Of a stretch of 64,000 nucleotides of DNA, positions 18,552-36,039 are shown piece after piece. Position 1 is the first letter of the stretch. Each line of letters begins with the position of its first letter. The DNA comes from Acidimicrobiia bacterium (GTDB lineage Bacteria; Acidobacteriota; Vicinamibacteria; Vicinamibacterales; CAVVIG01): positions 1-64,000 of the forward strand of contig VFZL01000011.1 of the NCBI GenBank assembly GCA_016871175.1, given 5' to 3'. The translations under genes and the position numbers were made by a program. The notes under the pieces are model-generated. The model did not search any database, was not told where the DNA came from, and was given only the letters and a program-made list of their open reading frames with translations.

Positions 18552-19199
18552 TTGGCGCAGATCTTTCCCCCTGGGTGGAACAAGCTCCCGATCGTGGCGG
18601 CCATTGCGGGCGTTCTCGGCCCGGCCCTCGCGATTGCGGGTGTCTGGTACTACTTCTCCCCGTGGTACACGGACGTGGGTTATCAGCCCGCGCAGCCGGT
18701 CCCGTATAGTCACAAGCTCCACGTCGGGGATCTCGGTCTCGACTGCCGCTATTGTCACGCCTCGGTCGAGACGTCCCCGGTCGCGAACATTCCGCCGACG
18801 CAGACCTGCATGAACTGCCACCAGACCGTGAAGAGGGACAGCGCGGTGCTCGCCCCCATCCGGGATAGCGCGCAGAGCGGCCGGCCGATGCGGTGGATTC
18901 GCGTGCACAAACTGCCCGACTATGCCTACTTCGCGCACAACGCCCACGTCTCGGCGGGCATCGGCTGCGTCACCTGTCACGGTCGCATCGACGAGATGGA
19001 GAAGGTCACGCAGATGACGCCCCTCAGCATGAGCTGGTGCCTGGACTGCCACCGCAATCCCGGGCCCAATAGGCGCCCGGTTTCTCAGGTCACCAACATG
19101 CGATGGACCCCACCCCGGGACCTCTCCGCCCTCGTCGAGCAACTCGATCGCGATCGACCAGTTCATCCACCCACGGATTGTTCGGGGTGCCACCGGTGA
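18552..19199 (+). CDS. actA: Alternative complex III subunit A, pentaheme cytochrome c
   Basis: TTG start; five CxxCH motifs (CRYCH, CMNCH, CVTCH, CLDCH, CSGCH); stop overlaps the next gene. Confidence 0.85.
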   Translation: MAQIFPPGWNKLPIVAAIAGVLGPALAIAGVWYYFSPWYTDVGYQPAQPVPYSHKLHVGDLGLDCRYCHASVETSPVANIPPTQTCMNCHQTVKRDSAVLAPIRDSAQSGRPMRWIRVHKLPDYAYFAHNAHVSAGIGCVTCHGRIDEMEKVTQMTPLSMSWCLDCHRNPGPNRRPVSQVTNMRWTPPRDLSALVEQLDRDRPVHPPTDCSGCHR

Positions 19200-22100
19200 A
19201 GAAGTACTGGCGAAGCCTTGCGCAACTCGAGCAGCGTCCAGAATTCCGCGATGCGCTCGAGCGGGAGTTCCCGGAAGGCGCTTCGGAGCTTCCTGAAGGC
19301 GTCACACGCCGCGACATGATGACGCTCCTCGGCGCGTCCATGTCGCTGATGGGGCTCGTCGGGTGTCGGCGGCCCACCGAAGAGATCGTCCCGTATGTGT
19401 CCGCGCCAGAGGACACGGTCCCTGGTGTCGCTCGATACTACGCGACGACCATGCCGTTCCAGCGCAGCGCCTATGGGCTGATCGTCGAGAGCCACGAGGG
19501 ACGACCGACGAAGATCGAGGGCAACCCCTCGCATCCCTCGACGCGCGGCGCGTCGAGCACCCGCATCCAAGCATCCGTGCTTGGCCTGTACGACCCCGAT
19601 CGCGCCCAGACGATCACGCAGAAGGGTGAGCGCAAGACCTGGGACGATTTCGTGAAGGCGTGGGGAGAGCTGTCCAAGACTCACGGGGAGGACGGCGGGG
19701 CGAGCCTTGCGGTGCTCTCGGAGTCGTTCTCGTCACCGACGCTGGCGCGCTTGGCATCCGAGTTCCGCGCCCGTTACCCAAAGACGCAGTGGGCGACCTA
19801 CGACGCCGTCAGCGACGAGAACCGACTCGCCGGACTCAGGCTCGCCACGGGCCGCGACGTCGACCTGATGTTGCGATTCGATCGCGCCTCCGTGGTGCTG
19901 ACGCTCGACGCTGACCCGCTGCTGACCGACCCGGAGATGGTCCGTCACGCCCGAGCCTTCGCGGACGGCCGGCGAGCCGGCGCCTCGGGCGGCACCATGA
20001 ACCGTCTCTACGCCGTTGAAGCGGTGTACTCGCTGACGGGCGCCACCGCCGATCATCGGCTCCGTCTCGAGAGCGGTCAGATCGCTCGCTTCCTCGCGGC
20101 GCTCGTGGCGCGGGTCGCTTCGGGGCAAGCGGGCGCCGCGAATCTGACCGCCGCCGCCGTTCCGGGCGTTGACGCCCGCTGGCTCGACGCGCTGGCGAAA
20201 GACCTGCAGGCGAACCGCGGCCAGAGTCTCATCGTGGCCGGCGATCGCCAGCCCGCAGCGGTGCACGCTGCGGTCTGCGCGCTGAACGCGTATCTTGATA
20301 ACACCGGTAAGACGGTCAGCTATTACGAGACCAAAGACGCGGCACTGCCGAGCGTCAGCTCGTTGACCGCGCTGCTGTCCGCGATGCAGGCGGGCACCAT
20401 CAAGACGCTCGTGGTGCTCGGCGGAAATCCGCTCTTCGATGCCCCGGTGGATCTGGGCTTCGCGGAGGCGTTGGCAAAGGTCCCCGAGGTGGTCGTTCTC
20501 GGGCACTCGGTCGACGAAACGGGCAGCAAGGCGACCTGGCACATTCCCCGCGCGCACTACCTCGAGTCGTGGGGCGACGCGCGTGCCGTCGGCGGCGTGC
20601 TCAGCATCGTCCAGCCCCTGATCCTCCCGCTGTTCGGCGGCCGAACCCCGATCGAAGTGCTGGGGCTGATGGTCGCCGACAAGGATCGACCCGGCTACGA
20701 CATCGTGCAGGAGACGTGGAAACCGATCCTTGGTGATGGGTTCGAGCGGAAGTGGAACCGCGTGCTCCATGACGGGTTGCTCCAGGGCAGCGAGCTGCCC
20801 GAAGTCACACCCGATCTGAGCGCGACGATGCCGCTGGCGGGGCTCGGGCGCCTCGTGGCCGGTGCGCCGGGCACCGACGGCCTCGAGATCGTGTTCCTGG
20901 CGTCCCCGTGGCTGCACGACGGCCGGTACGCGAACGATGCCTGGTTGCAGGAGCTGCCTGATCCCCTCACGAAGCTGACGTGGGACAACCCCGCGCTCTT
21001 GAGTCCGGGGACCGCCAAGACCGCGGGTGTGAAGGGCGGGGATATGGTCCGCCTGGAGTACGGCGGTCGGTCACTCGAGCTTCCGGTCTGGGAGCTCCCA
21101 GGCATGGCCGACGGCGTGGTCGCTCTGACCCTGGGGTATGGTCGGCCGCGCGCAGGACGCGTGGGGACTGGCGTCGGGTTCAACGCCTTCAGCGTCCGAG
21201 GCGCCAAGGCGTTGAACTTCGATCGCGGGGCGAGCCTCACCAGTCTCCGGCGAGAATATCCGCTGTCGGCGACGCAGAATCACGGCAGCATGGAGGGTCG
21301 CCCGATCGTCCATGAATCGACGCTGGCGGAACTTCGCGCGAAACCGTCCGCGCCGGCACACGCAGAGGGTGGACACGACGAGGAACCCGGACACGGAGAA
21401 CCTGCGCAGTCCGGCGGAGGCCACCTCACGCCCTACGGCGTCTTTCCGGCGGAGACGCATCACTTCTCACTCTGGAAGGAGCACAGCTACGACGAGGGCC
21501 ACCAGTGGGGCATGACCATCGACCTGAACGCCTGTATCGGCTGCAGTGCGTGCATGACGGCATGCCAGAGCGAGAACAACGTGCCGGTCGTCGGCAAAGC
21601 TCAGGTGGCCAAGGGACGGGAGATGCACTGGTTGCGGGTGGACCGCTATTTCTCCGGCGATCCCGCTGGTGACCCGGAGATCGTGTTCCAGCCGGTCCCG
21701 TGCATGCACTGCGAGGACGCACCCTGCGAGCAGGTGTGCCCCGTGGCCGCGACCGTTCACGACGCGCAGGGCCTCAACGTGATGGTCTACAACCGGTGCA
21801 TCGGAACGCGCTACTGCTCGAACAACTGTCCCTACAAGGTGCGTCGGTTCAACTTCTTCAACTTTACCAAGGACACGCCCAAGATCCTCAAGCTGGCGAT
21901 GAACCCGGACGTCACGGTTCGCGCGCGGGGCGTCATGGAGAAGTGCACCTACTGCACGCAGCGGATCAATCGCGCCAGAATCGACGCGAAGGTCGCCGGC
22001 CGTGAGCTGCGTGACGGCGACGTCAAGACGGCCTGCCAGCAGGCGTGTCCCGCCTCGGCGATCGAGTTCGGCAATCTTCGTGACGAGTCGAGCCGCGTGG

Positions 22101-22228
22101 TGAAGGCGAAGGCGGATCCCCGCAACTACGCGCTGCTCGAGGATCTGAACACGAAGCCCCGGACCACCTACTTGGCGAAGGTTCGCAACCCGAATCCCGA
22201 CCTGGCCACAGAGAGCGCTGCTCAATGA
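19196..22228 (+). CDS. actB: Alternative complex III subunit B, molybdopterin-like/Fe-S protein
   Basis: GTG start overlapping actA; long N-terminal domain and ferredoxin-type Cys clusters CIGCSACMTAC, CMHCEDAPCEQVCP, CIGTRYCSNNCP, CTYCTQRI, ACQQACP. Confidence 0.88.
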   Translation: MKKYWRSLAQLEQRPEFRDALEREFPEGASELPEGVTRRDMMTLLGASMSLMGLVGCRRPTEEIVPYVSAPEDTVPGVARYYATTMPFQRSAYGLIVESHEGRPTKIEGNPSHPSTRGASSTRIQASVLGLYDPDRAQTITQKGERKTWDDFVKAWGELSKTHGEDGGASLAVLSESFSSPTLARLASEFRARYPKTQWATYDAVSDENRLAGLRLATGRDVDLMLRFDRASVVLTLDADPLLTDPEMVRHARAFADGRRAGASGGTMNRLYAVEAVYSLTGATADHRLRLESGQIARFLAALVARVASGQAGAANLTAAAVPGVDARWLDALAKDLQANRGQSLIVAGDRQPAAVHAAVCALNAYLDNTGKTVSYYETKDAALPSVSSLTALLSAMQAGTIKTLVVLGGNPLFDAPVDLGFAEALAKVPEVVVLGHSVDETGSKATWHIPRAHYLESWGDARAVGGVLSIVQPLILPLFGGRTPIEVLGLMVADKDRPGYDIVQETWKPILGDGFERKWNRVLHDGLLQGSELPEVTPDLSATMPLAGLGRLVAGAPGTDGLEIVFLASPWLHDGRYANDAWLQELPDPLTKLTWDNPALLSPGTAKTAGVKGGDMVRLEYGGRSLELPVWELPGMADGVVALTLGYGRPRAGRVGTGVGFNAFSVRGAKALNFDRGASLTSLRREYPLSATQNHGSMEGRPIVHESTLAELRAKPSAPAHAEGGHDEEPGHGEPAQSGGGHLTPYGVFPAETHHFSLWKEHSYDEGHQWGMTIDLNACIGCSACMTACQSENNVPVVGKAQVAKGREMHWLRVDRYFSGDPAGDPEIVFQPVPCMHCEDAPCEQVCPVAATVHDAQGLNVMVYNRCIGTRYCSNNCPYKVRRFNFFNFTKDTPKILKLAMNPDVTVRARGVMEKCTYCTQRINRARIDAKVAGRELRDGDVKTACQQACPASAIEFGNLRDESSRVVKAKADPRNYALLEDLNTKPRTTYLAKVRNPNPDLATESAAQ

Positions 22229-22827
22229 CTGCCCGCACACCGCGCAGCCTGGGCGCTATCGCCCTCATGTCGCTTGTAACCATCGGCTGTGCGCGCGGCT
22301 GTACGTCGAGCCGCCCGCCGATCCATATCAATCCGAGCATGGACGATCAGCCGAAAGTGCGCCCGCAGACGAGCAACGGTTTCTTCTTCGACGGAGCGTC
22401 CATGCGCGTGCCCGTGCCAGGTACGGTCGCGATCGGCGGTCTGAAGGAAGATGATGCGTTCTTCACGGGGAGAACTGCGGACGGCGAGTACGTGGCGACG
22501 AATCCGAGGACGACCGACGAAGCGTTTGTCGAGCGCGGACGCCAGCGCTATACCATATATTGCGCGCCCTGTCACGACGCACGAGGAGATGGCAAGGGGA
22601 TCTTGTTCCAGCGCGGTAACGTTCCCACGGCCTCGTTCCACCAGGATAAGATTCTTCAATACACGGATGGGCAGCTCTTCGACGTCATCACCAACGGGCA
22701 AGGGCTGATGGCCGGCTACCGCTGGCCGATCCCCCCGGCTGACCGGTGGGCGATCGTCGCCTACGTGCGCACGCTGCAGCGCGATCGACAAGCGAGGGCC
22801 GCCAACGCGCCGGCAGCCACCCAGTAA
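22225..22827 (+). CDS. actE: Alternative complex III subunit E, monoheme cytochrome c
   Basis: Lipoprotein-like N-terminus; CAPCHDARGDGKGILFQRG; ATGA overlap with actB. Confidence 0.8.
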   Translation: MTARTPRSLGAIALMSLVTIGCARGCTSSRPPIHINPSMDDQPKVRPQTSNGFFFDGASMRVPVPGTVAIGGLKEDDAFFTGRTADGEYVATNPRTTDEAFVERGRQRYTIYCAPCHDARGDGKGILFQRGNVPTASFHQDKILQYTDGQLFDVITNGQGLMAGYRWPIPPADRWAIVAYVRTLQRDRQARAANAPAATQ

Positions 22828-22840
22828 GAGAGGCCACGGG

Positions 22841-24781
22841 ATGAACGGCACCATGAATCGCAAGCTGGCCCTAGTGCTTGGGCCGGTGACCGGTGTGCTC
22901 ATGTTTGCTGGCGTCGTGCTGATCGCGACGTTCCTGACGAACCGCGAGTATGCCCAGCCGTATCGCGCTCCTGCCGCCGTCGTCGACCCCACGCCGAGGG
23001 TGGAGGGGGTAGCCGCCGAGGCGGCCGACGCCGAGGCGAAGGCAAAAGCCACGCCCTACGCCGAGGCCGAGTACCGTCAATTCCCCGTCATCGGAAGCCG
23101 AGTGGCCGTCTGGGCCGTTTCACAGCTGCACCTGCTCTTTGCGGCCTTTGTGCTTGCGGTCCCACTCTTCGCGATCATCATCGAGATCATCGGCTACAAG
23201 ACCGGAGACCTCCGGTACGACCGGCTCGCGCACGAGTTCACGAAGCTCCTCTCCGTCTCGTTCTCACTCACGGCGACCTTCGGCGCGTTCCTGACATTCC
23301 TGCTCATCGCCTTGTATCCGAAGTTCACGAACTATCTGATGAGCGTGTTCTCGCCGACGTTCCTCCCGTACGTCCTGCTGTTCTTCGCGGAGGCCGCGTT
23401 CCTCTACACGTACTACTACGGTTGGGGGAAGTTCCATCCGCTCGTCCATATTGGGCTAGGGATCGGTCTCAACCTGGTGGGCACGGGCATCATGCTCATT
23501 GCCAATTCCTGGCTCACGTTCATGACGTCGCCGGCCGGTGTCTCGGATACGGGGGCGCTCATCTCGCTCTACGACGCGGTCTACAACTTCACGTGGATGC
23601 CGATCAACATCCATCGCATCATTGCGAACGTGGCCTTCGGCGGTTCGGTGGCTGCGGCATACGCGGCCTTCAAGTTCCTGCAGGCGGAGACCGACGAAGA
23701 GCGCGCGCACTACGACTGGATGGGCTACATCGGCAACTTCGTCGCCATCCTCGCGTTCCTGCCCCTCCCCTTCGCCGGCTACTGGCTCGCGAAAGAGATT
23801 TATGCGTTCTCGCAGACGCTCGGTCTGACGATGATGGGTGGGGCGTTTTCGTGGCTCTTCATCATCCAGGCCGTCTTGATTGGGAACCTCTTCCTGGCGG
23901 CCAACTACTACCTCTGGCTCGGGATGGGGCGCGTCGAGGGCCGGCAGCCGCTTCAGAAGTTCATCAAGTACCTGCTCATCGGCATCGCGCTCTGCTTCGC
24001 CATCTGGGCGACCCCGCGGTCCATCCTCGCCACCGTCTCCGAAATTCGCGCGATGGGAGGGTCAACTCACCCGATGCTGGGCTTTTTGGGTGTGATGTCC
24101 GCCAAGAACACCGCGGTGAACATCCTCATCCTCACGACGTTCATGAGCTTCCTGTTGTATCGCCGCACAGGCAAGATCGCCACGGTGGCGTGGGCAAAGA
24201 CGGGGCATGCCGCACAGCTCACCATCTTCGCGGCCGCCGCGTTCATCGTCATCTTCCTCGGCATCTACGGATACTTCGTCGAGGCGACCGTGCGGATCGG
24301 GTTGTCGGTGCCTCAGGTCAGCTCGGTGCTGATCGCGATGGTGTCGATCACCATCATCGACGTGTTTCTGTTCCGTCGCGCGAAGATGACCGGCGACGTT
24401 CGCTGGGGCAAGATTCCGCCGATCTCGCAGTACGTGCTGATCTTCATCGCGGTCACCTTCACGTGGCTGATGGGTCTGATGGGCTACGTGCGCTCGGGGC
24501 TCCGCCAGCACTGGCATGTGTACGGCGTCATTCGGGACACGTCGCCCGACGCGTTCACCCCCACACTCGGCTTCGCCACGCAGGTCGTCTCGGTCACCGT
24601 GCTCATATTCTTCGTGCTGATCGGTTTCGTGTTCTGGATAACGAGTCTGCACGACCGACCGGATTTCGTGCCATCGGCCAAGACGGTCACGCATCCGGGC
24701 GCTGACGTCGTGCTTGGAGGCGCGCTCGGCCATCAGCCGGGCATCGCCCGCGCCTCGCACTTCGAAGGGCGAACCCAGTAA
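22841..24781 (+). CDS. Cytochrome bd-type oxidase subunit I (CydA)-like membrane protein
   Basis: 646 aa multi-TM; QLHLLFAAFVLAVPLFAIIIE, FFAEAAFLYTYYYGWGKFHPLVHIGLGIGLNLVGTGIMLIANSWLTFM, NIHRIIANVAFGGSVAAAYAAF match CydA helices around its heme ligands; no CydB downstream. Confidence 0.85.
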   Translation: MNGTMNRKLALVLGPVTGVLMFAGVVLIATFLTNREYAQPYRAPAAVVDPTPRVEGVAAEAADAEAKAKATPYAEAEYRQFPVIGSRVAVWAVSQLHLLFAAFVLAVPLFAIIIEIIGYKTGDLRYDRLAHEFTKLLSVSFSLTATFGAFLTFLLIALYPKFTNYLMSVFSPTFLPYVLLFFAEAAFLYTYYYGWGKFHPLVHIGLGIGLNLVGTGIMLIANSWLTFMTSPAGVSDTGALISLYDAVYNFTWMPINIHRIIANVAFGGSVAAAYAAFKFLQAETDEERAHYDWMGYIGNFVAILAFLPLPFAGYWLAKEIYAFSQTLGLTMMGGAFSWLFIIQAVLIGNLFLAANYYLWLGMGRVEGRQPLQKFIKYLLIGIALCFAIWATPRSILATVSEIRAMGGSTHPMLGFLGVMSAKNTAVNILILTTFMSFLLYRRTGKIATVAWAKTGHAAQLTIFAAAAFIVIFLGIYGYFVEATVRIGLSVPQVSSVLIAMVSITIIDVFLFRRAKMTGDVRWGKIPPISQYVLIFIAVTFTWLMGLMGYVRSGLRQHWHVYGVIRDTSPDAFTPTLGFATQVVSVTVLIFFVLIGFVFWITSLHDRPDFVPSAKTVTHPGADVVLGGALGHQPGIARASHFEGRTQ

Positions 24782-24783
24782 CC

Positions 24784-25422
24784 ATGGCGGTGCCTCTCAT
24801 TGGTCGGATCGGCGTCCTTATCCTCGCGTCGACAGCGTTCTATGCCTATGTCGGCCAGCTGGTGCCTCAGAACGAAGTGCAGCCTCCGCAAGAGACGGTG
24901 CTCAGAACGGACTTGACAACCGCCGAGATGGTGACGACTGGGCGGCAGATCATGGATGCCAAGGGGCTCTGCTTCACGTGTCACACCATCGGCCGGAGTG
25001 GAGCGCTCCGGTTCCCCGACTTGGCAGGCATCGCCGGTCGCGTGTCGGAACGCGCGCCCGGCGTAACCGACATCGAATACTTCGCTCAATCGCTCTACGA
25101 GCCTGATTCCTTCATCGTGCCAGGATTCAACCCCGGGATGCCGGCGATCAACAGGCCTCCCATTGGCCTGACAGACCAAGAAATCCTGTGTGTGATCGCC
25201 TACTTGCAGTCGCTCGGCGGCACGCCGACGGTCACGATGCAGACCAGCCACAAGTACTACACCCCGGCGGGTGCTGCGCCGGTAGCACCGGGCGAGGCTC
25301 CGGCGAACGGCGCCGCACCGGGTCAGAAGGCGGCGCCAGTTGCGCCCGCAGCCGCCGCGCCCGCGAAGAGTGCGCAGCTGAAGCCCCAGGCGGCTCATCT
25401 CGGTGGAGCGTTCACATCATGA
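24784..25422 (+). CDS. Monoheme c-type cytochrome
   Basis: GLCFTCHTIGRSGALRFPDLAGIAGR; N-terminal TM; Ala/Pro-rich C-terminus. Confidence 0.8.
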   Translation: MAVPLIGRIGVLILASTAFYAYVGQLVPQNEVQPPQETVLRTDLTTAEMVTTGRQIMDAKGLCFTCHTIGRSGALRFPDLAGIAGRVSERAPGVTDIEYFAQSLYEPDSFIVPGFNPGMPAINRPPIGLTDQEILCVIAYLQSLGGTPTVTMQTSHKYYTPAGAAPVAPGEAPANGAAPGQKAAPVAPAAAAPAKSAQLKPQAAHLGGAFTS

Positions 25423-26234
25423 ACATCACGGTTCTCCTCGCGCTGATCGCGGTGCTCGTGGCCCTTCGCTTCATGAAGGCTCACCTGCTCCTGTGGGCTG
25501 GTGCGTGGTGGGTGGGGATCTACGTCCTGCTCCGATTTGGATTCCGGGTCCCGATTCCGGCCTCTGTCATTTCGATCTACATGGGGATCGTGACGCTCGC
25601 GATCCTGGCGTACTTGTCCTCCAGCGACGAGCGCCGCGAGGAAGTGTTCGGCCCACTCGTCCGGTTCATGACAGAGCGGCGGCACACCCCGTTCCTGGCC
25701 GTCACAGTCCTCGCCATACCGGCGCTGGCCGCCGCGAACGTCTATGTGCAGATGAACGTCGCGATCGAACCGCCCTTCTTCCCGCGCACGATCCACCCGG
25801 CATCGCCGACCGAGATCACGGTCCAGGACCAGCGGATCTCCATCGATTCGGGTGACAACCCGTATCGCGCGCTCGAGCAGTCGAATCCGGATGAGTTCCG
25901 CAAGCACGTGGAGAACGGCCGCCGCGTCTACTATCAGAACTGCTTCTTCTGCCACGGCGACAACCTCGGGGGCAACGGCATGTACGCACATGCGCTGAAC
26001 CCGATTCCCACCAACTTCGCTGACGGTACGACGCTCCCGAGTTTCCGCGAGACCTTCTTCTTCTGGCGGGTTTCCAAGGGCGGCCCTGGGATGCCCGAAG
26101 AGGGAGCGCCCTGGGACACGGCTATGCCGGCCTGGGAGAAGATGCTGAAGGAAGAAGAAATGTGGGACGTGATCCTCTTCCTCTATGACTTCATGGGCCA
26201 GCGGCCCCGCGCGCGCGAGGAGGTCCACCAGTGA
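25419..26234 (+). CDS. Membrane-anchored c-type cytochrome
   Basis: ATGA overlap with previous gene; TM segments then NCFFCHGDNLGGNGMYAHALNPIPTNFADG. Confidence 0.82.
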   Translation: MNITVLLALIAVLVALRFMKAHLLLWAGAWWVGIYVLLRFGFRVPIPASVISIYMGIVTLAILAYLSSSDERREEVFGPLVRFMTERRHTPFLAVTVLAIPALAAANVYVQMNVAIEPPFFPRTIHPASPTEITVQDQRISIDSGDNPYRALEQSNPDEFRKHVENGRRVYYQNCFFCHGDNLGGNGMYAHALNPIPTNFADGTTLPSFRETFFFWRVSKGGPGMPEEGAPWDTAMPAWEKMLKEEEMWDVILFLYDFMGQRPRAREEVHQ

Positions 26235-27901
26235 CGACGCGTCAGATCGCACGGGGTTTGACCCTTGCCTGGCTGGCCGTCCTGTGTGTTGGGACGGGAC
26301 TGGCGCGCGCTCAGAGTCCTGACATCGGCACCGAGGCGCAGCGTGAGGCGGGCAAAGTCCTGTACATGAAGCTGTGCTCACAGTGTCACGGCGAGAAGGG
26401 GGACGGCGCCGGGTACGCGACGCCGAACGTGCTCCCGAAACCTCGCGACTTCACCTCGGGCAAGTTCAAGGTCCGGACGACCGGCAGCGGCGCGCTCCCG
26501 ACGCACCAGGATCTGGTCAACATCATCAGGAAGGGCATGCCCTACACGTCGATGCCTTCCTGGCCCGGTCTGTCTGAGGAAGAAGTTTCGAACCTCGCCT
26601 ATTTCATCACCACGTTCTCGGCGGACTTCTCCAATCCTGAGGCGGCTCCGAAGCCCATTGACCTCCCAAGCGCTCCGGCATCGACGCCCGAGTCGATTGA
26701 GACCGGGAAGAAGCTCTACGAAGAGAACGGCTGCATCAAGTGCCACGGCACGCTGGGTCGCGCCGACGGTCCTTCGGCCCTCACCTTGAAGGACGAGGCG
26801 GGCAATCCGATTCGCCCGGCCAACCTCACGCACAGTTGGACCTTCCGGGGAGGTTCGTCGCGCGAGGACATCTTCAGGACGATGAGTACGGGGTTCAACG
26901 GAACGCCGATGCCGTCGTACTTAGAAGCGCTGCCGCCGGAGCAGCGGTGGGCGATTACGGACTTCATCGCGTCGCTCTCAGACACGAATGGGCCGGGCTA
27001 CACCAACCTCATCGTCGCCAGGCCCGTTCAGGATCCGATCGACCTGGCCAAGGGCGCCGAGAGCTTCGCGTCCGCACCCGTCGCTCGGTTCCCGCTTCTG
27101 GGACAGATTACGGAACCCGGACGCTCGTTCCATCCGCCCGCTACCAGCGTCACCGTGCAGGCCATCTACGACGCGGAGTCGATCGCGCTCCTCGTCAAGT
27201 GGCACGACATGAGAGCGGACAAGACGGGCAAGAACAGTCCGTCACTGCCCATCCCTCCGGAGGAGGAAGCGGGTGGTGAGGCACCGTCCGCGGCACCGGC
27301 GGCGTCGGAGACCGAAGCGGATCCGTTTGCCGACACCACCGAGGACACCGTCGCCCCGCCAGCGGAGTTCTCCGACGCGGTGGCGGTCCAGTTTCCTGTA
27401 GCCGTGCCAGCTGGCGCCCGCAAGCCCTACTTCATCTTTGGCGACTCCCAGAGCTCCGTGGACCTCTGGTTCTTCGACCTTGCGCGCAACGAGCCCCTCC
27501 AGTTCATCGGTCGGGGAAGCGGGGACGTCGCAGTCAACGATGCGGGAGACGTCACAGGTGTCGCGAGCTACAGCGACGGAGAATGGTCGGTCATCTTCAG
27601 GCGTCCGCTTCGCGCCAGCTCCGGCGCCCCGTTCACGCCTGGACAGTTCATGCCGATCGCCTTGTCCGCCTGGGACGGATCCGCGCGGGAGCGTGGCAAC
27701 AAGCGAGCGCTCTCCGTCTGGTACTCGCTGTACATGGAGCCCGAAACGGTCCCGTCGGCCGCGGGCCCGATGATCAGGACGGCGCTCATCATCTTCGGGT
27801 TAGAGCTGGCAATCATTGGTTGGGTTCGATCTCGTCTCCGATCGCAGGCCCGCAACGAGATTCGCGGGGAGGGAAGACCGCAGCCGGCCATGGGCAGTTG
27901 A
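26231..27901 (+). CDS. Diheme cytochrome c with ethylbenzene-dehydrogenase-gamma-like (EB_dh) heme-binding domain
   Basis: CSQCHGEKGDGAG and CIKCHGTLGRADG, followed by an EB_dh-like region (SVTVQAIYDAESIALLVKWHDMRADK...SYSDGEWSVIFRRPLRA...FMPIALSAWDGSARERGNKRALSVWYSLYM); C-terminal TM. Confidence 0.78.
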   Translation: MTTRQIARGLTLAWLAVLCVGTGLARAQSPDIGTEAQREAGKVLYMKLCSQCHGEKGDGAGYATPNVLPKPRDFTSGKFKVRTTGSGALPTHQDLVNIIRKGMPYTSMPSWPGLSEEEVSNLAYFITTFSADFSNPEAAPKPIDLPSAPASTPESIETGKKLYEENGCIKCHGTLGRADGPSALTLKDEAGNPIRPANLTHSWTFRGGSSREDIFRTMSTGFNGTPMPSYLEALPPEQRWAITDFIASLSDTNGPGYTNLIVARPVQDPIDLAKGAESFASAPVARFPLLGQITEPGRSFHPPATSVTVQAIYDAESIALLVKWHDMRADKTGKNSPSLPIPPEEEAGGEAPSAAPAASETEADPFADTTEDTVAPPAEFSDAVAVQFPVAVPAGARKPYFIFGDSQSSVDLWFFDLARNEPLQFIGRGSGDVAVNDAGDVTGVASYSDGEWSVIFRRPLRASSGAPFTPGQFMPIALSAWDGSARERGNKRALSVWYSLYMEPETVPSAAGPMIRTALIIFGLELAIIGWVRSRLRSQARNEIRGEGRPQPAMGS

Positions 27902-27927
27902 GCTGATAGGGTCTTCCGGAGGATCCG

Positions 27928-29979
27928 ATGTACAAGAGCATTTACGTTCCCGTCGACAACTCAGACCACTCCAATCGTGCTGTCGCCTGCAGCGTCGCCC
28001 TGGGCAAGGCGTTCGACGCCAAACTGGTCGGCTGCCACGTGTACGCGGCACAGCTGCACGACTACCGCTTTCGGCAGATGGAGTACACCCTGCCGGAAGA
28101 GTACATCGATGAAGTGGAGCTCGAGCGCCAGAGGAAGATCCACGACAGCCTCATCACGATGGGTCTGAAGCTCATCTCCGACAGCTATCTCGATGGGATG
28201 TCGCGTCTCTGCGGCGAATCGGGCCTCGCGTTCGAGCCGCGGATGATGGACGGCAAGCATCACAACGAGATCCTCAAGGATCTCACCGGCTCGAAGCACG
28301 ACCTCGTCGTGATTGGGGCTCTGGGCGTGGGCCGCGCGCGCGACAGCGTAATCGGCTCGGTGTGCGAACGCGTGGCTCGCCAGTCCGATCGCGATGTGTG
28401 GGTGGTCAAGCACGTCCCCGAGCCGGGCGAAGCTGAGCGAGACACGATTCTCGTCGGTGTCGACGGCAGCCCGCAGTCGTTCGGCGCGCTCATGACGGCC
28501 ATCGAGTTGGCACGGAAGTTCGACAAGAAGATTGAAGCCATCGCCGTGTACGACCCCTATCTGCACTACTCGGTCTTCAACGGCATCGTCAACGTCCTCA
28601 CGGAGCAGGCGGCGAAGGTGTTCCGCTTCGAGGAACAGAATCAGCTCCACGAGGAGATCATCGACACCGGGCTGGCGCAGATCTATCAGTCGCATCTCGA
28701 AGTGGGCGAGCGGATGGCGAGCGAAGAGGGCGTCACGATCAAGAAGACGCTCCTCGACGGTAAGCCATTCCAGAAGATTCTCGACCACGCACGTAAGACC
28801 AATCCGTGGCTCATCGTGATGGGACGCATCGGCGTCCACAGCCCGAAGGACGAGGCAGGGCTTGGGAGCAACTCAGAGAACGTCTTGCGAGCGGCGCCTT
28901 GCGACGTACTCCTCTCCACACGTCTCGAGGTGCCACGCCTCGACGTGCGAGCCGAGGAAACCATTCGGTGGACGCCAGAGGCCGAGGAGCGCATGAAGCA
29001 CGTGCCCGATCAGGTCAAGGGCATCGCCCGCACGGGCGTTCTTCGTCTTGCGCTCGAGAAAGGGCATTCGGTGATCACCAGCGCCGTGATCGATGACGCG
29101 ATGGATCGGTTCATGCCGAAGAGCGCCTCCAATGCCACGAAGGCGCTGGCCGAAGCCGTGGCGCTCGAGCGCGCGAAGTCCGGTCCCGTGTCGATGTGCC
29201 GAGCGTGCGGCGTGACGGCGACGCAGAGCGATCCCGTGAAATGCACGGTCTGCGGCGCCTCGGATTTCGAAGTCATCTCCCAGGAGATGATCGAGAGGAT
29301 CGCAGAGGTTGAAGGTGGCCTCGAGGAAGAGACCACCTACGACGGGCGGAAGCTTCGCTGGACCGACGACGCGCGGAAGGGCCTCTGGACGATGAAGAAC
29401 GCCTATCAGCGCCGCCGCGTCAAGGCGCGCGTCGAGAAGCGCGCTCGCATGATGAAGCTCGACGCCATCACGCTCGACTTCGCACGGCAGGTGATCGAAG
29501 AAGAGACGGGGACGCCGCTCGATATCAAGGCCTCGTCGGCCCACGGCGCAGGCGGCGCAGGTCGGTCCTCGGCCACCGCGAACGGCAATGGTTCAACGGG
29601 CGAGGCCAAGCTCATCGCGCGCGATGACCGGAAGAACCCGCTGATCTCGACGTTCGAGTGGACCGGCGACGCCGCGCAGCGGATCCTCCGAGTCCCGGCC
29701 GGCTTCATGCGGGGCCAGACGCAGGAGAGAATCGAGCAGCTCGCGCATGAGCGCGCCGTGACGACCATCGACCTCGGCCTCGTCGAAGAGGGCATCGAGA
29801 TCGGCAAGAAGATGATGGCCGAGATGCTCGCGAACTACACGCCGCCGACTGCGAATACCGGCAACGGAACGGCGCCGCGAGAGTCTGCTACCCACTCACC
29901 GTCAGGCGCGCCCGCTCAGGTCAACAGAGGCGGGTACCTGAATGAGGTGAGCGCGCTGTCGTCGAAGCGGGTGAACTGA
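27928..29979 (+). CDS. Universal stress protein (two domains) - Zn-ribbon - three PCP_red-like domains
   Basis: GGAGG upstream; MYKSIYVPVDNSDHSNRAVACSVALGKAF and DTILVGVDGSPQSFGALMTAIELARKF; CRACGVTATQSDPVKCTVCGASDFE; PCP_red-like WTPEAEERMKHVPDQVKGIARTGVLRLALEKGHSVITSAVIDDAM, WTDDARKGLWTMKNAYQRRRVKARVEKRARMMKLDAITLDFARQVIEE, WTGDAAQRILRVPAGFMRGQTQERIEQLAHERAVTTIDLGLVEEG. Confidence 0.85.
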   Translation: MYKSIYVPVDNSDHSNRAVACSVALGKAFDAKLVGCHVYAAQLHDYRFRQMEYTLPEEYIDEVELERQRKIHDSLITMGLKLISDSYLDGMSRLCGESGLAFEPRMMDGKHHNEILKDLTGSKHDLVVIGALGVGRARDSVIGSVCERVARQSDRDVWVVKHVPEPGEAERDTILVGVDGSPQSFGALMTAIELARKFDKKIEAIAVYDPYLHYSVFNGIVNVLTEQAAKVFRFEEQNQLHEEIIDTGLAQIYQSHLEVGERMASEEGVTIKKTLLDGKPFQKILDHARKTNPWLIVMGRIGVHSPKDEAGLGSNSENVLRAAPCDVLLSTRLEVPRLDVRAEETIRWTPEAEERMKHVPDQVKGIARTGVLRLALEKGHSVITSAVIDDAMDRFMPKSASNATKALAEAVALERAKSGPVSMCRACGVTATQSDPVKCTVCGASDFEVISQEMIERIAEVEGGLEEETTYDGRKLRWTDDARKGLWTMKNAYQRRRVKARVEKRARMMKLDAITLDFARQVIEEETGTPLDIKASSAHGAGGAGRSSATANGNGSTGEAKLIARDDRKNPLISTFEWTGDAAQRILRVPAGFMRGQTQERIEQLAHERAVTTIDLGLVEEGIEIGKKMMAEMLANYTPPTANTGNGTAPRESATHSPSGAPAQVNRGGYLNEVSALSSKRVN

Positions 29980-29983
29980 TTGG

Positions 29984-30076
29984 TCGGGGTTCTGCCCCGA
30001 CCCGGCTCGGTCGCTTGCGGGGGCCCCGTGCCCTGTACCGTTCCATCCCGGAGCGCTGTGCGCGCCGGTACCGAGG
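29984..30076. repeat. Dispersed GC-rich intergenic repeat, copy 2
   Basis: TCGGGGTTCTGCCCCGA then GTCGCTTGCGGGGGCCC..CCGTTCC..TGTGCGCGCC; compare 1233-1372. Confidence 0.5.
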
Positions 30077-30096
30077 CGGAGCCGCACAAGGTAGCA

Positions 30097-30987
30097 ATGT
30101 CCGCGTACCGATTTTGCCGCACCGACGATATTGGTCTGCTCGTCAACGCGCTGAATCGCTGCTGGTCTCCTTACGTACCTGACCAACCGCCCGAGACGCC
30201 GACCACATTCAAGCGGTCGATCCGCGACCTGCAGGTCTGGTGCAGCAGCTGTATGGTGGCGTTCGTCGGTGCGGACCCGATTGGCGTCCTGATCGGCGGG
30301 AAGCGGCCCACTGGAACCCTGATCCACAGGATCGCCGTCCATCCCAGTCACCGCCGACAGGGTCATGGACGACACCTGCTGACCTCGCTCAGCTCGAAGC
30401 TCGCCATCCTCGGCCCACCTCGGATCGTCGCCGAGGTCCCTGAACAGCTCACGCCCGCCCGCGAGCTGTTCAAAGCTTGCGGCTTCACCCAAGAAGCAGT
30501 CCTGACGGACTACGCGCGGCCGTTCGACTGGGTGGAGTCCGATGTGCCTGCTCAGGGGGTCGGTGGCCTGGTCATTCCCGTCACGGTTGACGATCTGGTT
30601 GCAAACGGCCTCCTCGGAGACACCCAGCCACTGCTCTGCTGGGAGCGCTCGGTCGAGACGCTCACCGCCAGGAAAGCCGAAATCGCCGGACTCGCCATCG
30701 CCAACGACGAACGCATTGAAGCGTATCTTCTGTACCTCAAGCGCGAAGTGGCCGCAGAGCCGGACGATGAGGCGAGAACGCCTGCCACGGAGCTGGTGTC
30801 GCTCCGCTCCATGGTCGACGATGGTGGAGCTCGTCTGAGGCGTTTGCTCTCACAGCTCCCGGATCGGAGGAGCGTCCGCATCACGAAGGTCCATCCGGCG
30901 GAGATCTCCAAGCAGATCCTGGAGTCGGTCGGGTTCCGTCCGTGCGGCGAACATCTCCTCCACGCGGCGAGGGCACGTTCGAACTAA
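30097..30987 (+). CDS. GNAT-family N-acetyltransferase
   Basis: MSAYRFCRTDDIGLLVNALNRCW...IHRIAVHPSHRRQGHGRHLLTSL (acetyl-CoA binding motif). Confidence 0.8.
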   Translation: MSAYRFCRTDDIGLLVNALNRCWSPYVPDQPPETPTTFKRSIRDLQVWCSSCMVAFVGADPIGVLIGGKRPTGTLIHRIAVHPSHRRQGHGRHLLTSLSSKLAILGPPRIVAEVPEQLTPARELFKACGFTQEAVLTDYARPFDWVESDVPAQGVGGLVIPVTVDDLVANGLLGDTQPLLCWERSVETLTARKAEIAGLAIANDERIEAYLLYLKREVAAEPDDEARTPATELVSLRSMVDDGGARLRRLLSQLPDRRSVRITKVHPAEISKQILESVGFRPCGEHLLHAARARSN

Positions 30988-30996
30988 GGACGAGAT

Positions 30997-31464
30997 ATGA
31001 ACGGCCATCAGGAAGCAGCTCCGTCCGGTCGGCGAGTCTCGGGTTGGCGTGCCCTCGTGCTGTGCCTGCTGGTGGCTGTTTTCGTCGGGTGCGACGAGTC
31101 CCCGGCAACTCTGCCCTCGGGGGTCTTGACGGACCGGCTGTCGGGAACCTGGACGCTGGTTTCGCTGCAACCGGCGGGCGAGCCGGAACAGCCGACACCG
31201 ATTCCGGCGCGCTACACCTTGACCTTCGCCGGCGAGCGCGTCACAACCCTGGCCGACTGCAATACGTGCAACGGGACGGTGGCCGTGTCCGGCACCACCG
31301 TGTCCATTGGGCCGCTGCTCGCGTGCGCTCGTGCGGCGTGCCTGACGCAGGCGTTCGCCAGCACGTATGTGGGACTGCTCTCGGGTGAGAGCACCATCAC
31401 TCGGGTCACCGGCGTCACGCTCGAGCTATCATCGTCGCGGGGCACGCTCAGGTTCTCCCGCTGA
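30997..31464 (+). CDS. META-domain lipoprotein
   Basis: Lipobox-like VAVFVGCDE; LSGTWTLVSLQP...YTLTFAGERVTTLADCNTCNGTV. Confidence 0.65.
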   Translation: MNGHQEAAPSGRRVSGWRALVLCLLVAVFVGCDESPATLPSGVLTDRLSGTWTLVSLQPAGEPEQPTPIPARYTLTFAGERVTTLADCNTCNGTVAVSGTTVSIGPLLACARAACLTQAFASTYVGLLSGESTITRVTGVTLELSSSRGTLRFSR

Positions 31465-31623
31465 ACATTCCGGTCCGGGCGCTCTCCGGCTCGACCCACT
31501 GGCCAACCCGTCGGACGTCTGGGTCAGCCGCACCGCGTGTCCGGACGGCGCTCTTCGGTGCAGTGCGGATGAGTGTAAGCTAAGAAGGTCCGCCTAGAGT
31601 CAAAACCGCTGAACGTCAGCAGC

Positions 31624-32637
31624 ATGAAGAGCTACCACGACATCGTCGGCGACGGCGGGTCCAGAATCCTCGAGCAGGTCGCCGAGCAGCGCGCTCGTAT
31701 CGCGGACGGGCTCGCCGGGGTGCGCCATCTCGTGGCCATCGGCTCCGGCAAAGGGGGCGTCGGCAAGAGCACGCTGACCGTGCACCTCGCGGGCGCTCTG
31801 CGCGACCGCGGCCTTCGGATTGGGATCCTGGACGCAGACTTCAACGGCCCTACGCAGGCGCGAATGGCTGGGGTTCAGGGAGCGCTGTTCGTTCCGGGCA
31901 GCCACAAGGTGTCGCTCCCACGCACCAAGAACGGGATTGCGGTTTTCTCGATGGGTTCGCTGATTCCCGAGTCGCAGGCGCTCGAGTTCGACAGTGCGGC
32001 GCAGGGGGAGTCTCATACCTGGCGAGCCACGAGAGAGTTCGCGCTCCTCGGCGAAATCCTCCGGTCCTTCGAGTGGGGAGAGCTGGATGTGCTGCTGCTC
32101 GATCTGCCGCCCGGAGCCGACCGGACCGTGCAGTACGCCGACTTCCTCGGTCCACAGGTCGCGTTTCTGTTGGTGACGATTCCTTCCGAAGTATCCCGAG
32201 GGGTGGTCGCGCGTTCGGTGGCGGCGTTGTCGAAGGGCCCCAATCGCCTCCTTGGATACGTCGAGAACATGAGCGGCTACTATTGTCGCGACTGCAAGGC
32301 GATCAAGCCGCTCTTCGATTCATCCCCGCCCCTGGCCGGTACCTGGGGCAGGCCCCCCAACCAGGCTCAGAGCGAAGACCGAGGGTCTACGCTGGGAATC
32401 CGCTGCCTCGGGACCGTCCCATTCGATCCCGAACTTGCTCGGCGCTGCGACCAGGGCCTTCCGTTCGCGGTGATGAACGACAACCCGGTGAGCCACGCGT
32501 TGACCCACATCGCGGAGCGCCTTATGGCCGTTCTCGAGTCGACGCCGGCCGCTGATCCTGCGGGTGCGATACAGTTAGAGCAGCGAACCTCTGCTCGCGC
32601 TGGTGAGCCGAGGGTCGACAAGGATGTCCGACCATGA
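31624..32637 (+). CDS. Mrp/ApbC (NBP35-type) P-loop ATPase
   Basis: Deviant Walker A AIGSGKGGVGKSTLTVHLAGAL; DVLLLDLPPGADRT; VENMSGYYCRDCKAIKPLF (CxxC). Confidence 0.88.
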   Translation: MKSYHDIVGDGGSRILEQVAEQRARIADGLAGVRHLVAIGSGKGGVGKSTLTVHLAGALRDRGLRIGILDADFNGPTQARMAGVQGALFVPGSHKVSLPRTKNGIAVFSMGSLIPESQALEFDSAAQGESHTWRATREFALLGEILRSFEWGELDVLLLDLPPGADRTVQYADFLGPQVAFLLVTIPSEVSRGVVARSVAALSKGPNRLLGYVENMSGYYCRDCKAIKPLFDSSPPLAGTWGRPPNQAQSEDRGSTLGIRCLGTVPFDPELARRCDQGLPFAVMNDNPVSHALTHIAERLMAVLESTPAADPAGAIQLEQRTSARAGEPRVDKDVRP

Positions 32638-33125
32638 AGTTCCTGTGTGTGCCCTGCGACAGCCCGATGAAGCTTCAGTCCGTGGGTCCGCCCGAGCGTG
32701 GCTCGCTGTCGGTCGTCTACGCGTGCCCCGAGTGCGGGTACGAAATGGCGATGCTCACCAATGCGTACGAAACACAAGTCGTTCAATCATTGGGCGTGCG
32801 AATCGGACCGGCCGAAGCTTCAGCGCAGGCTGGCCTCGTTCATGCCGCCGCTGGCCCCTCGGCGAGCCCTTCGGATGGATCAGCAGAAGGTAGCCGCTGC
32901 CCGTTCACCGCGCTGATACCAGGGGCGGAACAGCCAAAACCCCGGCAGGCCGGCACACAAGTCGCCGTACGTTGGACGTCGGCTGCCGAGGCTCGGCTGG
33001 CCAACATTCCCGCGTTCGTGCGTCCGATGGCGCGAACGGGAATCGAGACGTTCGCGCGGGAGAGGGGCGTTCTCGAAGTGGATGAGCAGATCCTCGACGC
33101 CGCCCGCGAGTTCTTCGGCATGTAA
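32634..33125 (+). CDS. Zn-ribbon protein with C-terminal PCP_red-like domain
   Basis: MKFLCVPCDSPMKL...VYACPECGYEMAML (two CxxC) and VRWTSAAEARLANIPAFVRPMARTGIETFARERGVLEVDEQILDAAREFFGM. Confidence 0.82.
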   Translation: MKFLCVPCDSPMKLQSVGPPERGSLSVVYACPECGYEMAMLTNAYETQVVQSLGVRIGPAEASAQAGLVHAAAGPSASPSDGSAEGSRCPFTALIPGAEQPKPRQAGTQVAVRWTSAAEARLANIPAFVRPMARTGIETFARERGVLEVDEQILDAAREFFGM

Positions 33126-33158
33126 GGCGCCGTTTCGTACAGCCACACCGAGAGGAAC

Positions 33159-34733
33159 ATGTCGGAATCGACGACCAGTCCGCTCCCGCTCATCCTTCGA
33201 CGTCGCGAACCAGGTGGTGAAGCGGGCCGAATGGACAAGCCTGTCCCGAGCGAGAACGCGGGCCACGCCCCGCGGCAGGTCGAGGGATTCGCACGGCCCT
33301 ACGTCATCTCCTGGAACCTCACGTATCGCTGCAACCTCGCCTGCGAGCACTGCTATCTCGACGCCGGCGGCACGCCGCTCGTCACCACGGAAGACTTCGC
33401 CGATCGGAGCGAGCTCGGCACCGAGGAATGCTTCCGTGTCATCGACGACATCGCCAGTTTCGCACCCGAATGCCTGACGATTCTGACAGGCGGTGAGCCA
33501 CTTCTTCGGCGCGATATCCTCGAGATCGTCAAGCGCGCGGCGGAGCGCGACCTCTGGGTGGTCGTCGGGACCAACGGCGTGCGAATTAGCGAGAACGTCG
33601 CTAGCCGGCTGGCAGAGGCCGGAGCCCGTGGCCTGTCCCTCTCGCTCGATGCGCTCGATGCGGAGCGTCACGATCGTTTCAGAGGAGTGCGTGGCGCCTG
33701 GAAGAACACCGTCGAGGGAGCGGCCATCCTCAACCGAACCGGGCTTCCGTTCATCGTTCAGACCACGGCCGGTTCGCACAATCTTCGCGAGCTTGAAGCG
33801 ATCGCCGACTTCGCGTACGAGCACTTGGCCGCCAAGGTCTGGAACCTCTACTTCCTGGTGCCGACCGGGCGCGGGCAGTTCGTCTCGGACATGACCCCGG
33901 CGCAGTACGACGGAGTGCTCGCGTCGCTCTTCCGCATCCAGACCAAGTACAAAGGCCGGATGCTCGTAAACGCGAAGTGCGCACCGCACTACATCAAGAC
34001 GGTGCTCGAGCAGGTCAGTTCTAGCGGAGGCGCCTCAGATTCGATGACAGCCGACGCCGCTGCTGGGCAAGGCGCTTTGGGGTCCGGTCTGTCTCCGATA
34101 CGGACGTACTCCGGCGGGGCCGGCGGATGTCCAGCGGGGACGCACTACATGGGGATTCGGCCGAACGGTGACGTCACGCCGTGCCCGTACCTCCCGGTTT
34201 TCGCGGGGAGCCTTCGCCGCTCGAGTCTGGCTGACCTCTGGACGTCATCCGAGTTGTTCACTGACGTTCGCCACCGGTCATCGCTCGGAGGACGCTGTGG
34301 CGCCTGTGAGATGAACGGCCATTGCGGAGGTTGCCGTGCCCGCGCCCACGGTATGGTTGGCGACCTGATGGCCGAGGACCCCCTCTGCACCCACACGCCC
34401 GGGAAGTTCGCGGGGTCGCCCCTGCTCACGCTGGCCGGTGGGCCATCCGCGGGAGCGCAGCTGGGCGCAGGGATCCGAGCCAACGACGGGGGCTGGGAGC
34501 AGGGCCGCGCGATGCCGCCCATACAGGGCATTCAGTACGGCACTGAATCAGCGCCGACCATCGCGTGGGACGAGGCCGCCGCCGCGCGGATGAAGAAGAT
34601 TCCGGCGTTCGTGCGTGGGATGGTGATGAAGGCGGTCGAGGACTCCTGTCGTAAGAACGGCCTCGACCGCGTGACGGTGGAAGAGCTCGAACGGATCCGC
34701 GCGCGAATGCCGACCCCGAAGTTCTTCGGATAG
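33159..34733 (+). CDS. Radical SAM/SPASM protein (NirJ/AhbD-like) with C-terminal PCP_red-like domain
   Basis: WNLTYRCNLACEHCYLDAGG (CxxxCxxC), SPASM-like CPAGTHYMGIRPNGDVTPCPYLPVFAGSL and CGACEMNGHCGGCRARAHGMVGDLMAEDPLC; C-terminus WDEAAAARMKKIPAFVRGMVMKAVEDSCRKNGLDRVTVEELERI. Confidence 0.87.
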   Translation: MSESTTSPLPLILRRREPGGEAGRMDKPVPSENAGHAPRQVEGFARPYVISWNLTYRCNLACEHCYLDAGGTPLVTTEDFADRSELGTEECFRVIDDIASFAPECLTILTGGEPLLRRDILEIVKRAAERDLWVVVGTNGVRISENVASRLAEAGARGLSLSLDALDAERHDRFRGVRGAWKNTVEGAAILNRTGLPFIVQTTAGSHNLRELEAIADFAYEHLAAKVWNLYFLVPTGRGQFVSDMTPAQYDGVLASLFRIQTKYKGRMLVNAKCAPHYIKTVLEQVSSSGGASDSMTADAAAGQGALGSGLSPIRTYSGGAGGCPAGTHYMGIRPNGDVTPCPYLPVFAGSLRRSSLADLWTSSELFTDVRHRSSLGGRCGACEMNGHCGGCRARAHGMVGDLMAEDPLCTHTPGKFAGSPLLTLAGGPSAGAQLGAGIRANDGGWEQGRAMPPIQGIQYGTESAPTIAWDEAAAARMKKIPAFVRGMVMKAVEDSCRKNGLDRVTVEELERIRARMPTPKFFG

Positions 34734-34745: not shown

Positions 34746-35552
34746 CTACTGCGCGAACGGGTCGTCAGCGGTCTCGACCGCCTCCTTGACCTTTTCGTCC
34801 ATCCATTTCTGGAATTCCTCTGCGGTCTGGACCGTGACGAATCCTCGCATCCGGAAGTGACCGAGCCCGCAGAGCTGTGCGCAGGCGATCTCGTATTGGA
34901 AGTTGGGGTTTCCGGTTCGAGTCCGCATCTCGGCGGTTGTGACGTCCGGGATGAACCAGATCGGAATGGTCAGGCCGGGCACCGCGTCCTGCTTCACGCG
35001 GAACTCTGGTACGCCGAAGCCGTGAATGACGTCCTTGCTCCTTAGCCTGATGATGACGGGCCTGTTCACGGGCAGATAGAGCTGATTCAGCGTCGTCACG
35101 TCGTCCTTCGCGGCCGGATCGGATCGATCGAGCCCGAGAGGGTTCGTCTGGACGTCGATCATCTTGATGTCCGTGCGGCCGAAGACCCCGTCGGGACCTG
35201 GGTAGCGAATGTTCCACGCGAACTGTTCGCCCGTGACCTGAACGACCAGCGCTTCCTTATCAGAGGGGATCTCGTCGACCCTCGCGGCCCACAGCGGAAT
35301 CGAGAAGGCGAAGAGAAGGACGAGTTCGACGAGGAGCACGCCGCCCTCGAGATAGCTCGACGCGTGTGACCGGACGCCGTGATGGTCTGCGACTGGATGT
35401 GCCGACTTGCGGAAACGAACCAGGACGTAGAGGAAGAACGCCCCCCACCCGATGAACAGGATCAGCATGAAAATGTGTATCCAGCCGATCAGGTTGTCGA
35501 TCTGCGCGCCGTGAGTTGCGGCAAGCCTCGGAAGTCCAAGCCACTCAGTCAT
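34746..35552 (-). CDS. coxB: Cytochrome c oxidase subunit II
   Basis: DVIHGFGVPEFRVKQDAVPG and CuA motif CAQLCGLGHFRM. Confidence 0.9.
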   Translation of the reverse strand: MTEWLGLPRLAATHGAQIDNLIGWIHIFMLILFIGWGAFFLYVLVRFRKSAHPVADHHGVRSHASSYLEGGVLLVELVLLFAFSIPLWAARVDEIPSDKEALVVQVTGEQFAWNIRYPGPDGVFGRTDIKMIDVQTNPLGLDRSDPAAKDDVTTLNQLYLPVNRPVIIRLRSKDVIHGFGVPEFRVKQDAVPGLTIPIWFIPDVTTAEMRTRTGNPNFQYEIACAQLCGLGHFRMRGFVTVQTAEEFQKWMDEKVKEAVETADDPFAQ

Positions 35553-35842
35553 GTTCTAGACGCTCCCTTTTGGAGCTCCGACCACTCGATATCGAGGTCG
35601 GTGTCAGCGATCTGCTTCGCGCGATTGCGAAGGTAGAGAAAGAAGCCCAGGAACGCGCCCTGCACCGCCAGCGTGATGCCTAACAGCGCAAAGACACCCA
35701 GTCTTGTCCCGTCGATGATCGTCGTCTCCTCGGCTCCAAAGCACACTGGACACGCGAAGACGGTCGACCCACCACCCGACACCAGGGCGGCCGCTGTGAC
35801 GAGCACCCGCATGGCCCCGAGACGTCTTGAAGGTGTCTTCAT
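35549..35842 (-). CDS. Small membrane protein of the oxidase operon
   Basis: Signal/TM; VFACPVCFGAEETTIIDGTRLGVFALLGITLAVQGAFLGFFLYL. Confidence 0.65.
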   Translation of the reverse strand: MKTPSRRLGAMRVLVTAAALVSGGGSTVFACPVCFGAEETTIIDGTRLGVFALLGITLAVQGAFLGFFLYLRNRAKQIADTDLDIEWSELQKGASRT

Positions 35843-36039
35843 CGAAGTGTCCTCGTCTGGCGGAGAAACCACGAATCGTAGACGACCAGGCCGAACGACA
35901 CGACAAACGCCGCGATGGCCCCAATCAGGCTACCGATCTCGCCGTCCTGCCGGTACTGGGACAGACACCAGAGGCCGAACACCACGGCGACCGCCGCGGA
36001 GAAGAAGATCAGCAGCGCGTGGAACCAGCGCAGGTTCAT
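35839..36039 (-). CDS. Small two-TM protein of the oxidase operon
   Basis: MNLRWFHALLIFFSAAVAVVFGLW...; overlaps neighbouring genes by 4 bp. Confidence 0.6.
   Translation of the reverse strand: MNLRWFHALLIFFSAAVAVVFGLWCLSQYRQDGEIGSLIGAIAAFVVSFGLVVYDSWFLRQTRTLR

Follow-up and report, generated by a model that had tools for sequence, protein, structure and literature searches.

A tandem universal stress protein with three PCP_red-like domains is encoded in a multi-phylum gene cassette together with a cytochrome bd-like protein

The PCP_red domain is known from chlorophyll synthesis, where, in protochlorophyllide reductase, it forms an appendix of a catalytic subunit; to our knowledge, the only enzyme with a characterised PCP_red domain is a tetrapyrrole reductase. 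Fusions of universal stress protein (USP) domains are common in general. The OR-N families of cytochrome bd-like oxidases were reportedly defined by Murali and colleagues in 2021. OR-N-type oxidases are described as conserved in nitrite oxidisers, as likely to use cytochrome c instead of quinol and as yet uncharacterised (PMC10839748), and one of them, OR-N5, as encoded immediately after alternative complex III in Nitrospirales (PMC12342949). The enzymes AhbD and NirJ act on the propionate side chains of haem precursors (PMC7242693). In the open-access literature we found no account of PCP_red with a universal stress protein, or of the gene cassette described below; an earlier description elsewhere is possible.

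The DNA analyzed here comprises positions 1 to 64,000 of the forward strand of contig VFZL01000011.1 (GCA_016871175.1; hereinafter the window). An earlier note had singled out in it a gene for a 683-residue USP-PCP_red fusion, with no mention of two further PCP_red proteins in the same cluster. This gene belongs to one co-directional run from 19103 to 34733, in the order ActB-like protein, cytochrome c, bd-like protein, three cytochromes c, USP-PCP_red protein, GNAT, META-domain protein, Mrp, CPF/PCP_red protein and radical SAM (rSAM)-PCP_red protein. We judge it somewhat probable that the fusion acts in the cytoplasm, in response to a nucleotide, as a tetrapyrrole carrier or an assembly scaffold that specifically serves the bd-like oxidase (probably of the OR-N type and linked to cytochrome c). 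The features of the run, with their evidence in brackets, are:

19103..22228, forward strand: ActB-like molybdopterin-type/Fe-S protein, alternative complex III type (TAT-variant MoCo domain, QrcC-like Fe-S)
22225..22827, forward strand: monohaem cytochrome c, ActE-like (domain search)
22841..24781, forward strand: membrane protein resembling cytochrome bd subunit I, with about 13 predicted TM segments and lacking GRQPW (CydA profile; co-occurrence)
24784..25422, forward strand: cytochrome c (Pfam)
25419..26234, forward strand: membrane-anchored cytochrome c; the listed ORF starts at 25188 (domain search, loci comparison)
26231..27901, forward strand: di-haem cytochrome c with an ethylbenzene-dehydrogenase-type haem b domain (profile searches)
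27928..29979, forward strand: USP-USP-PCP_red-rubredoxin-like-PCP_red-PCP_red protein, 683 aa (ORF, Pfam, family HMM, AlphaFold)
29980..30987, forward strand: GNAT acetyltransferase, a recurrent neighbour in acidobacterial cassettes (Pfam, loci comparison)
31624..32637, forward strand: Mrp/ApbC-type P-loop ATPase (profile searches)
32634..33125, forward strand: Cys-ribbon protein; CPF motif at 32898-32906, single PCP_red at residues 114-158 (CPF in 9 of 9 relatives)
33159..34733, forward strand: radical SAM/SPASM enzyme of the AhbD/NirJ2 type with a C-terminal PCP_red (residues 470-513) (profile searches)

The ORF at 27928-29979 is intact, and a strong ribosome-binding site, GGAGG, precedes its ATG by 6 nt. 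Its placement directly after the cytochrome cluster, as described in the earlier note, is borne out by the mere 26 bp that separate it from the preceding cytochrome gene (26231-27901). A scan of the operon region found no sigma-70 promoter, and terminator-like matches there were not more numerous than in shuffled sequence. Directly after the cassette, on the opposite strand, lies a haem-copper oxidase cluster encoding COX2 and COX1 domain proteins (34746-38965, reverse strand). The encoded protein has the order USP-USP-PCP_red-four cysteines-PCP_red-PCP_red, and in a comparison of five homologues the two USPs, each of the PCP_red copies and the ribbon have a dN far lower than dS, indicating purifying selection, the constraint being loose only in linker 2 and the tail. 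An AlphaFold2 model of the whole protein (54-sequence alignment; mean pLDDT 81.9, pTM 0.59) contains a tandem USP and folds each PCP_red copy into three helices, with linker 2 and the tail disordered; modelled alone, the C-terminal half reaches a pLDDT of 76.9. The otherwise variable tail ends, in acidobacterial homologues, in a short conserved stretch, GGYLNEV. The parts of the protein are:

27928..28416, forward strand: USP domain 1; ATP motif G130-x2-G133-x9-G143-S; helical hairpin insert bearing H44 and H72 (Pfam, AlphaFold, alignment)
28441..28923, forward strand: USP domain 2; D179, G299-x2-G302-x10-G313; corresponding hairpin insert bearing H213 and H241 (Pfam, AlphaFold, alignment)
28963..29103, forward strand: PCP_red copy 1, residues 346-392 (Pfam, genome scan, family HMM, profile search)
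29188..29283, forward strand: rubredoxin-like four-Cys knuckle, CRAC..CTVC (Pfam, relatives, dN/dS; this copy is below the RUBY_RBDX cut-off)
29353..29496, forward strand: PCP_red copy 2, residues 476-523, the one furthest from the Pfam model (genome scan, family HMM, AlphaFold)
29653..29796, forward strand: PCP_red copy 3, residues 576-623 (genome scan, family HMM, AlphaFold)
29929..29949, forward strand: conserved GGYLNEV peptide in the disordered C-terminal tail of acidobacterial homologues (alignments)

Both USP domains reported in the earlier note are recovered above the curated cut-off by Pfam Usp (PF00582; 144.6 bits, 2 stretches). The ATP motif, G-2x-G-9x-G(S/T), is exact in USP domain 1, and its glycines are kept in 54 of 54 relatives; USP domain 2 has a 10-residue spacer instead of 9. 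Foldseek matches the tandem USP fold to ATP-bound TTHA0350 (3ab8, TM 0.82 on the target) and also to 3cis, and ATP is accordingly a candidate ligand; matches to RuvBL and to cation-chloride transporters were set aside as generic. The window protein thus shares with the tandem USPs TTHA0350, UspE and Rv2623 its two USP domains, ATP motif and fold, whereas it differs from them in a long inserted helical hairpin with an invariant histidine in each USP and in its long PCP_red/rubredoxin-like C-terminal half. The inserted hairpins (28048-28218 and 28552-28710; residues about 41-97 and 209-261) are seemingly unusual for USPs. Their histidines H44, H72, H213 and H241 are invariant in 54 of 54 sequences, with the qualification that H44 lies inside HD[YL]RFRQM, a part of the motif that served as a locus search pattern and the invariance of which is therefore biased. 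The conservation of these histidines is suggestive of a site between the two halves that might hold a metal or haem; we reject the inserts as a proven site of this kind, given that bias.

Three tandem PCP_red-like domains, as the earlier note had it, are found by Pfam PCP_red (PF08369; 77.3 bits in total over 3 stretches, the best at residues 348-391) and more clearly by a family-specific HMM, with 52.5, 45.5 and 51.6 bits for copies 1, 2 and 3 (346-392, 476-523 and 576-623). When scored singly in a whole-genome scan against the Pfam cut-off of 32.5, copies 1 (39.8 bits) and 3 (34.6) pass and copy 2 (19.6) fails, in line with the divergence between copies noted earlier. Structure prediction likewise agrees with a PCP_red-like C-terminal half, the top two Foldseek matches of which are the solved PCP_red domains 2kru (TM 0.76, rmsd 1.1 Å) and 2l09 (TM 0.70, rmsd 1.7 Å), although, the domain being short, their E-values reach no better than 0.025-0.037. 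Profile searches match PCP_red to the C-terminal domain of protochlorophyllide reductase subunit B (2kru, 1.3e-6; 3aek, 4e-4). The likeness to BchB/ChlB of the light-independent enzyme, evident in both fold and sequence (2kru, 2l09, 3aek, 2xdq), is confined to this domain: the BchB catalytic core is absent, only the last about 55 residues aligning (45 bits versus a cut-off of 509), and PCP_red is instead repeated three times and fused to USPs. Every clear PCP_red copy in the genome (3+1+1) resides in one of three cassette proteins encoded within 6 kb of each other, and a role in photosynthesis was rejected on this ground.

As an appendix of a catalytic subunit in protochlorophyllide reductase, PCP_red may by itself be a docking module, and the copies could then be protein-protein adaptors that hold the rSAM, Mrp or HemY-like enzyme and never touch a tetrapyrrole. 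The divergence of copy 2 is in keeping with such a scaffold, as is a copy number that, by the family HMM, ranges freely between 1 and 5 in the USP protein and between 1 and 4 in the rSAM protein; the shortest relatives, mainly from Betaproteobacteria, have USP-USP and one or two PCP_red copies (about 410-490 aa), and gammaproteobacterial ones usually have five. We nevertheless consider it unlikely, as the characterised PCP_red belongs to a tetrapyrrole reductase and the cassette neighbours are tetrapyrrole-type enzymes; these same observations favor a carrier in which PCP_red would be the putative tetrapyrrole-binding module.

Between PCP_red copies 1 and 2 lie the four cysteines of the earlier note (C424, C427, C439 and C442); the element exists, but it is better described as rubredoxin-like, with relatives in RUBY_RBDX, than as the generic zinc ribbon proposed there, and it is modelled with moderate confidence only (pLDDT about 70-75). 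The window copy keeps the four cysteines and scores 13.1 bits on RUBY_RBDX (PF21349), below the cut-off of 26.5. Nitrospirota homologues score 22.6 bits, and two Methylomirabilota relatives pass the cut-off (L028, 31.1 bits; L029, 28.2 bits), which argues that the element is rubredoxin-like by descent. It is found in Acidobacteriota, Methylomirabilota and Nitrospirota, the groups that have the pair of Mrp and a second PCP_red protein, and is absent from the proteobacterial homologues in the 54-sequence alignment. This shared distribution would fit a catalytic subunit, PCP_red and the knuckle together forming a porphyrin or haem reductase driven with Mrp, by analogy with protochlorophyllide reductase. 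We hold this to be very improbable: there is no BchN/BchB catalytic core, and the proteobacterial homologues dispense with both the knuckle and the Mrp neighbor while the cassette is still kept.

The earlier note had proposed looking for the same architecture in other phyla, and relatives do occur in Methylomirabilota, Nitrospirota and Proteobacteria besides Acidobacteriota: scanning named genomes yielded 69 loci (70 with the window counted), which come from Acidobacteriota, Methylomirabilota, Nitrospirota, Beta-, Gamma- and Alphaproteobacteria and Magnetococcales. The carriers are non-photosynthetic bacteria of several phyla. Three proteins labelled as cyanobacterial (L021), acidimicrobial (L027) and deltaproteobacterial (L026) are 80%, 81% and 62% identical to that of the window; the Cyanobacteria and Acidimicrobiia labels are probably wrong, or the bins mixed. 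Neighbors recurring across the 70 loci are the bd-like gene (45), the AhbD/NirJ-type rSAM-PCP_red gene (45) and a protoporphyrinogen oxidase (42; 262 bits on TIGR00562, cut-off 98), the last directly following the rSAM gene in 28 of 32 loci, as well as cytochromes c. The cofactor chaperone suggested by the earlier note draws strong circumstantial support from these conserved neighbors.

The cassette comes in two nearly exclusive versions, one with Mrp and the CPF/PCP_red protein in Acidobacteriota, Methylomirabilota and Nitrospirota, and one with protoporphyrinogen oxidase in Proteobacteria. A single acidobacterial locus (L068, on the same contig as G011) is of the proteobacterial type, and two groundwater bins labelled Nitrospirae (L042, L043) have the protoporphyrinogen oxidase version. 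The CPF motif, which resembles known Cys-Pro haem regulatory motifs, changes its host protein with the version: it occurs in 9 of 9 partner PCP_red proteins or, alternatively, in 29 USP-PCP_red proteins, almost all from Proteobacteria, where it lies in the PCP_red linker. Beside PCP_red it takes the form [GSK]CPF[AGS], at 32898-32906 in the window's partner protein and in the USP-protein linkers of L037-L069. Each being missing in part of the family, neither CPF nor the rubredoxin-like knuckle is essential to the core mechanism.

Proteobacterial loci add a histidine kinase, an NtrC-type regulator, a HEAT-repeat protein and SCO1. Gammaproteobacterial loci encode an 840-aa HEAT-repeat protein whose repeats weakly resemble those of the phycobilin lyase CpcE/F (L065:6463-8979) and a 247-aa, probably secreted protein with C-x2-H-x2-M that looks cupredoxin-like (L061:3845-4585), both with counterparts in further loci of this class. 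The histidine kinase and NtrC-type regulator, present in many proteobacterial loci unlike in the window, bear on a regulatory role, in which the USP pair would sense ATP or another nucleotide and PCP_red a haem or porphyrin, thereby tuning synthesis or activity of the oxidase. The conserved USP nucleotide motif speaks for such a role, and a PAS histidine kinase with an NtrC-type regulator is found in about half of the loci, nearly all of them proteobacterial; yet this pair is missing from almost all acidobacterial loci, the USP-PCP_red protein has no output domain, and PCP_red is also fused to the rSAM enzyme, which points to a common substrate or partner rather than signalling. We thus regard a regulator as improbable, and the redox/energy-state sensor that the earlier note offered as its other suggestion finds no direct support in the window, which is devoid of an adjacent regulatory output.

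The link to the bd-like gene was quantified in two orders belonging to different phyla, within each of which the cassette is sporadically distributed. Among 162 genomes of the window's order, 16 have the bd-like gene, 18 PCP_red and 15 both (p=2.4e-17), and among 210 genomes of the gammaproteobacterial order of Thiodiazotropha, 36 have the bd-like gene, 38 USP-PCP_red and 35 both (p=3.3e-35), p-values that are overstated because related genomes are not independent. In three genomes per order a USP or PCP_red gene is present and no bd-like gene was detected; of these genomes, at least two are incomplete or fragmented, and 10 of the 11 genomes reached through loci have the bd-like gene. Even in Nitrospirota, where the genes are scattered, the genomes still have the bd-like, rSAM-PCP_red and Mrp plus CPF-PCP_red genes at other sites. 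USP-PCP_red proteins from different families of the window's order share 80-86% identity, yet most genomes lack the protein, a combination consistent with the cassette being transferred or lost as a whole. The USP-PCP_red protein is therefore not an orphan but belongs to a cassette inherited with the bd-like oxidase. That it might be an ordinary USP fusion with coincidental neighbors, as the general frequency of USP fusions could suggest, is contradicted by the multi-phylum synteny and the near one-to-one co-occurrence, and we give this idea hardly any credence.

The bd-like protein itself (22841-24781) matches the CydA profile over its N-terminal helices, and the GRQPW quinol motif is found in none of 44 bd-like sequences. 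Judged by its sequence, it resembles the OR-N type and is probably a cytochrome c-linked member of it. The OR-N cytochrome bd-like oxidases of Nitrospira and Nitrospinota are likewise bd-like, devoid of the quinol motif and encoded near cytochromes c, and OR-N5 is likewise placed downstream of alternative complex III-type genes (PMC12342949, PMC10839748); the passages on these oxidases drawn on here name no PCP_red accessory proteins.

The rSAM enzyme (33159-34733) scores 280.6 bits on AhbD (TIGR04545) and 269 on NirJ2, below the equivalog cut-offs of 500 of both, and is hence AhbD/NirJ-like rather than a proven member. It is akin by these profile scores to AhbD and to NirJ/NirJ2 of the siroheme and haem d1 pathways, and differs from them in its sub-cut-off scores and in its fusion to PCP_red; at most, it may work like the haem b synthase AhbD. 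We do not favor it as the main haem route of the genome: a ferrochelatase is present, so the rSAM enzyme is probably unneeded for ordinary haem and a special tetrapyrrole is favored. A separate HemJ beside the cassette protoporphyrinogen oxidase in two proteobacterial genomes points the same way. In the window genome, neither HemY nor HemJ was found above cut-off as a protoporphyrinogen oxidase, and for want of a HemY-type oxidase above cut-off the proteobacterial version of the pathway is incomplete here.

In the carrier or assembly scaffold that we favor, the rSAM/SPASM-PCP_red enzyme would modify a porphyrin or haem, and the PCP_red modules would hold the modified tetrapyrrole and hand it along. 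The tandem USP would bind ATP and thereby set the loaded or docking state, and the product would be transferred to its putative recipient, the bd-like membrane protein encoded in the same operon. A wider proposal, which we advance tentatively and with some doubt, is that the cassette makes and installs an undescribed modified haem specific to the cytochrome c-linked bd-like oxidases found in nitrifiers, in sulfur oxidisers and in Acidobacteriota from soil, PCP_red being a general tetrapyrrole-carrier module common to the cassette proteins. If true, the co-inherited tetrapyrrole-type enzymes and carriers would explain the needs of the OR-N-type oxidase, the cassette would serve as a genetic marker for functional bd-like oxidases, the question of which haem these oxidases carry would become a direct experimental one, and PCP_red would gain a role outside chlorophyll synthesis.
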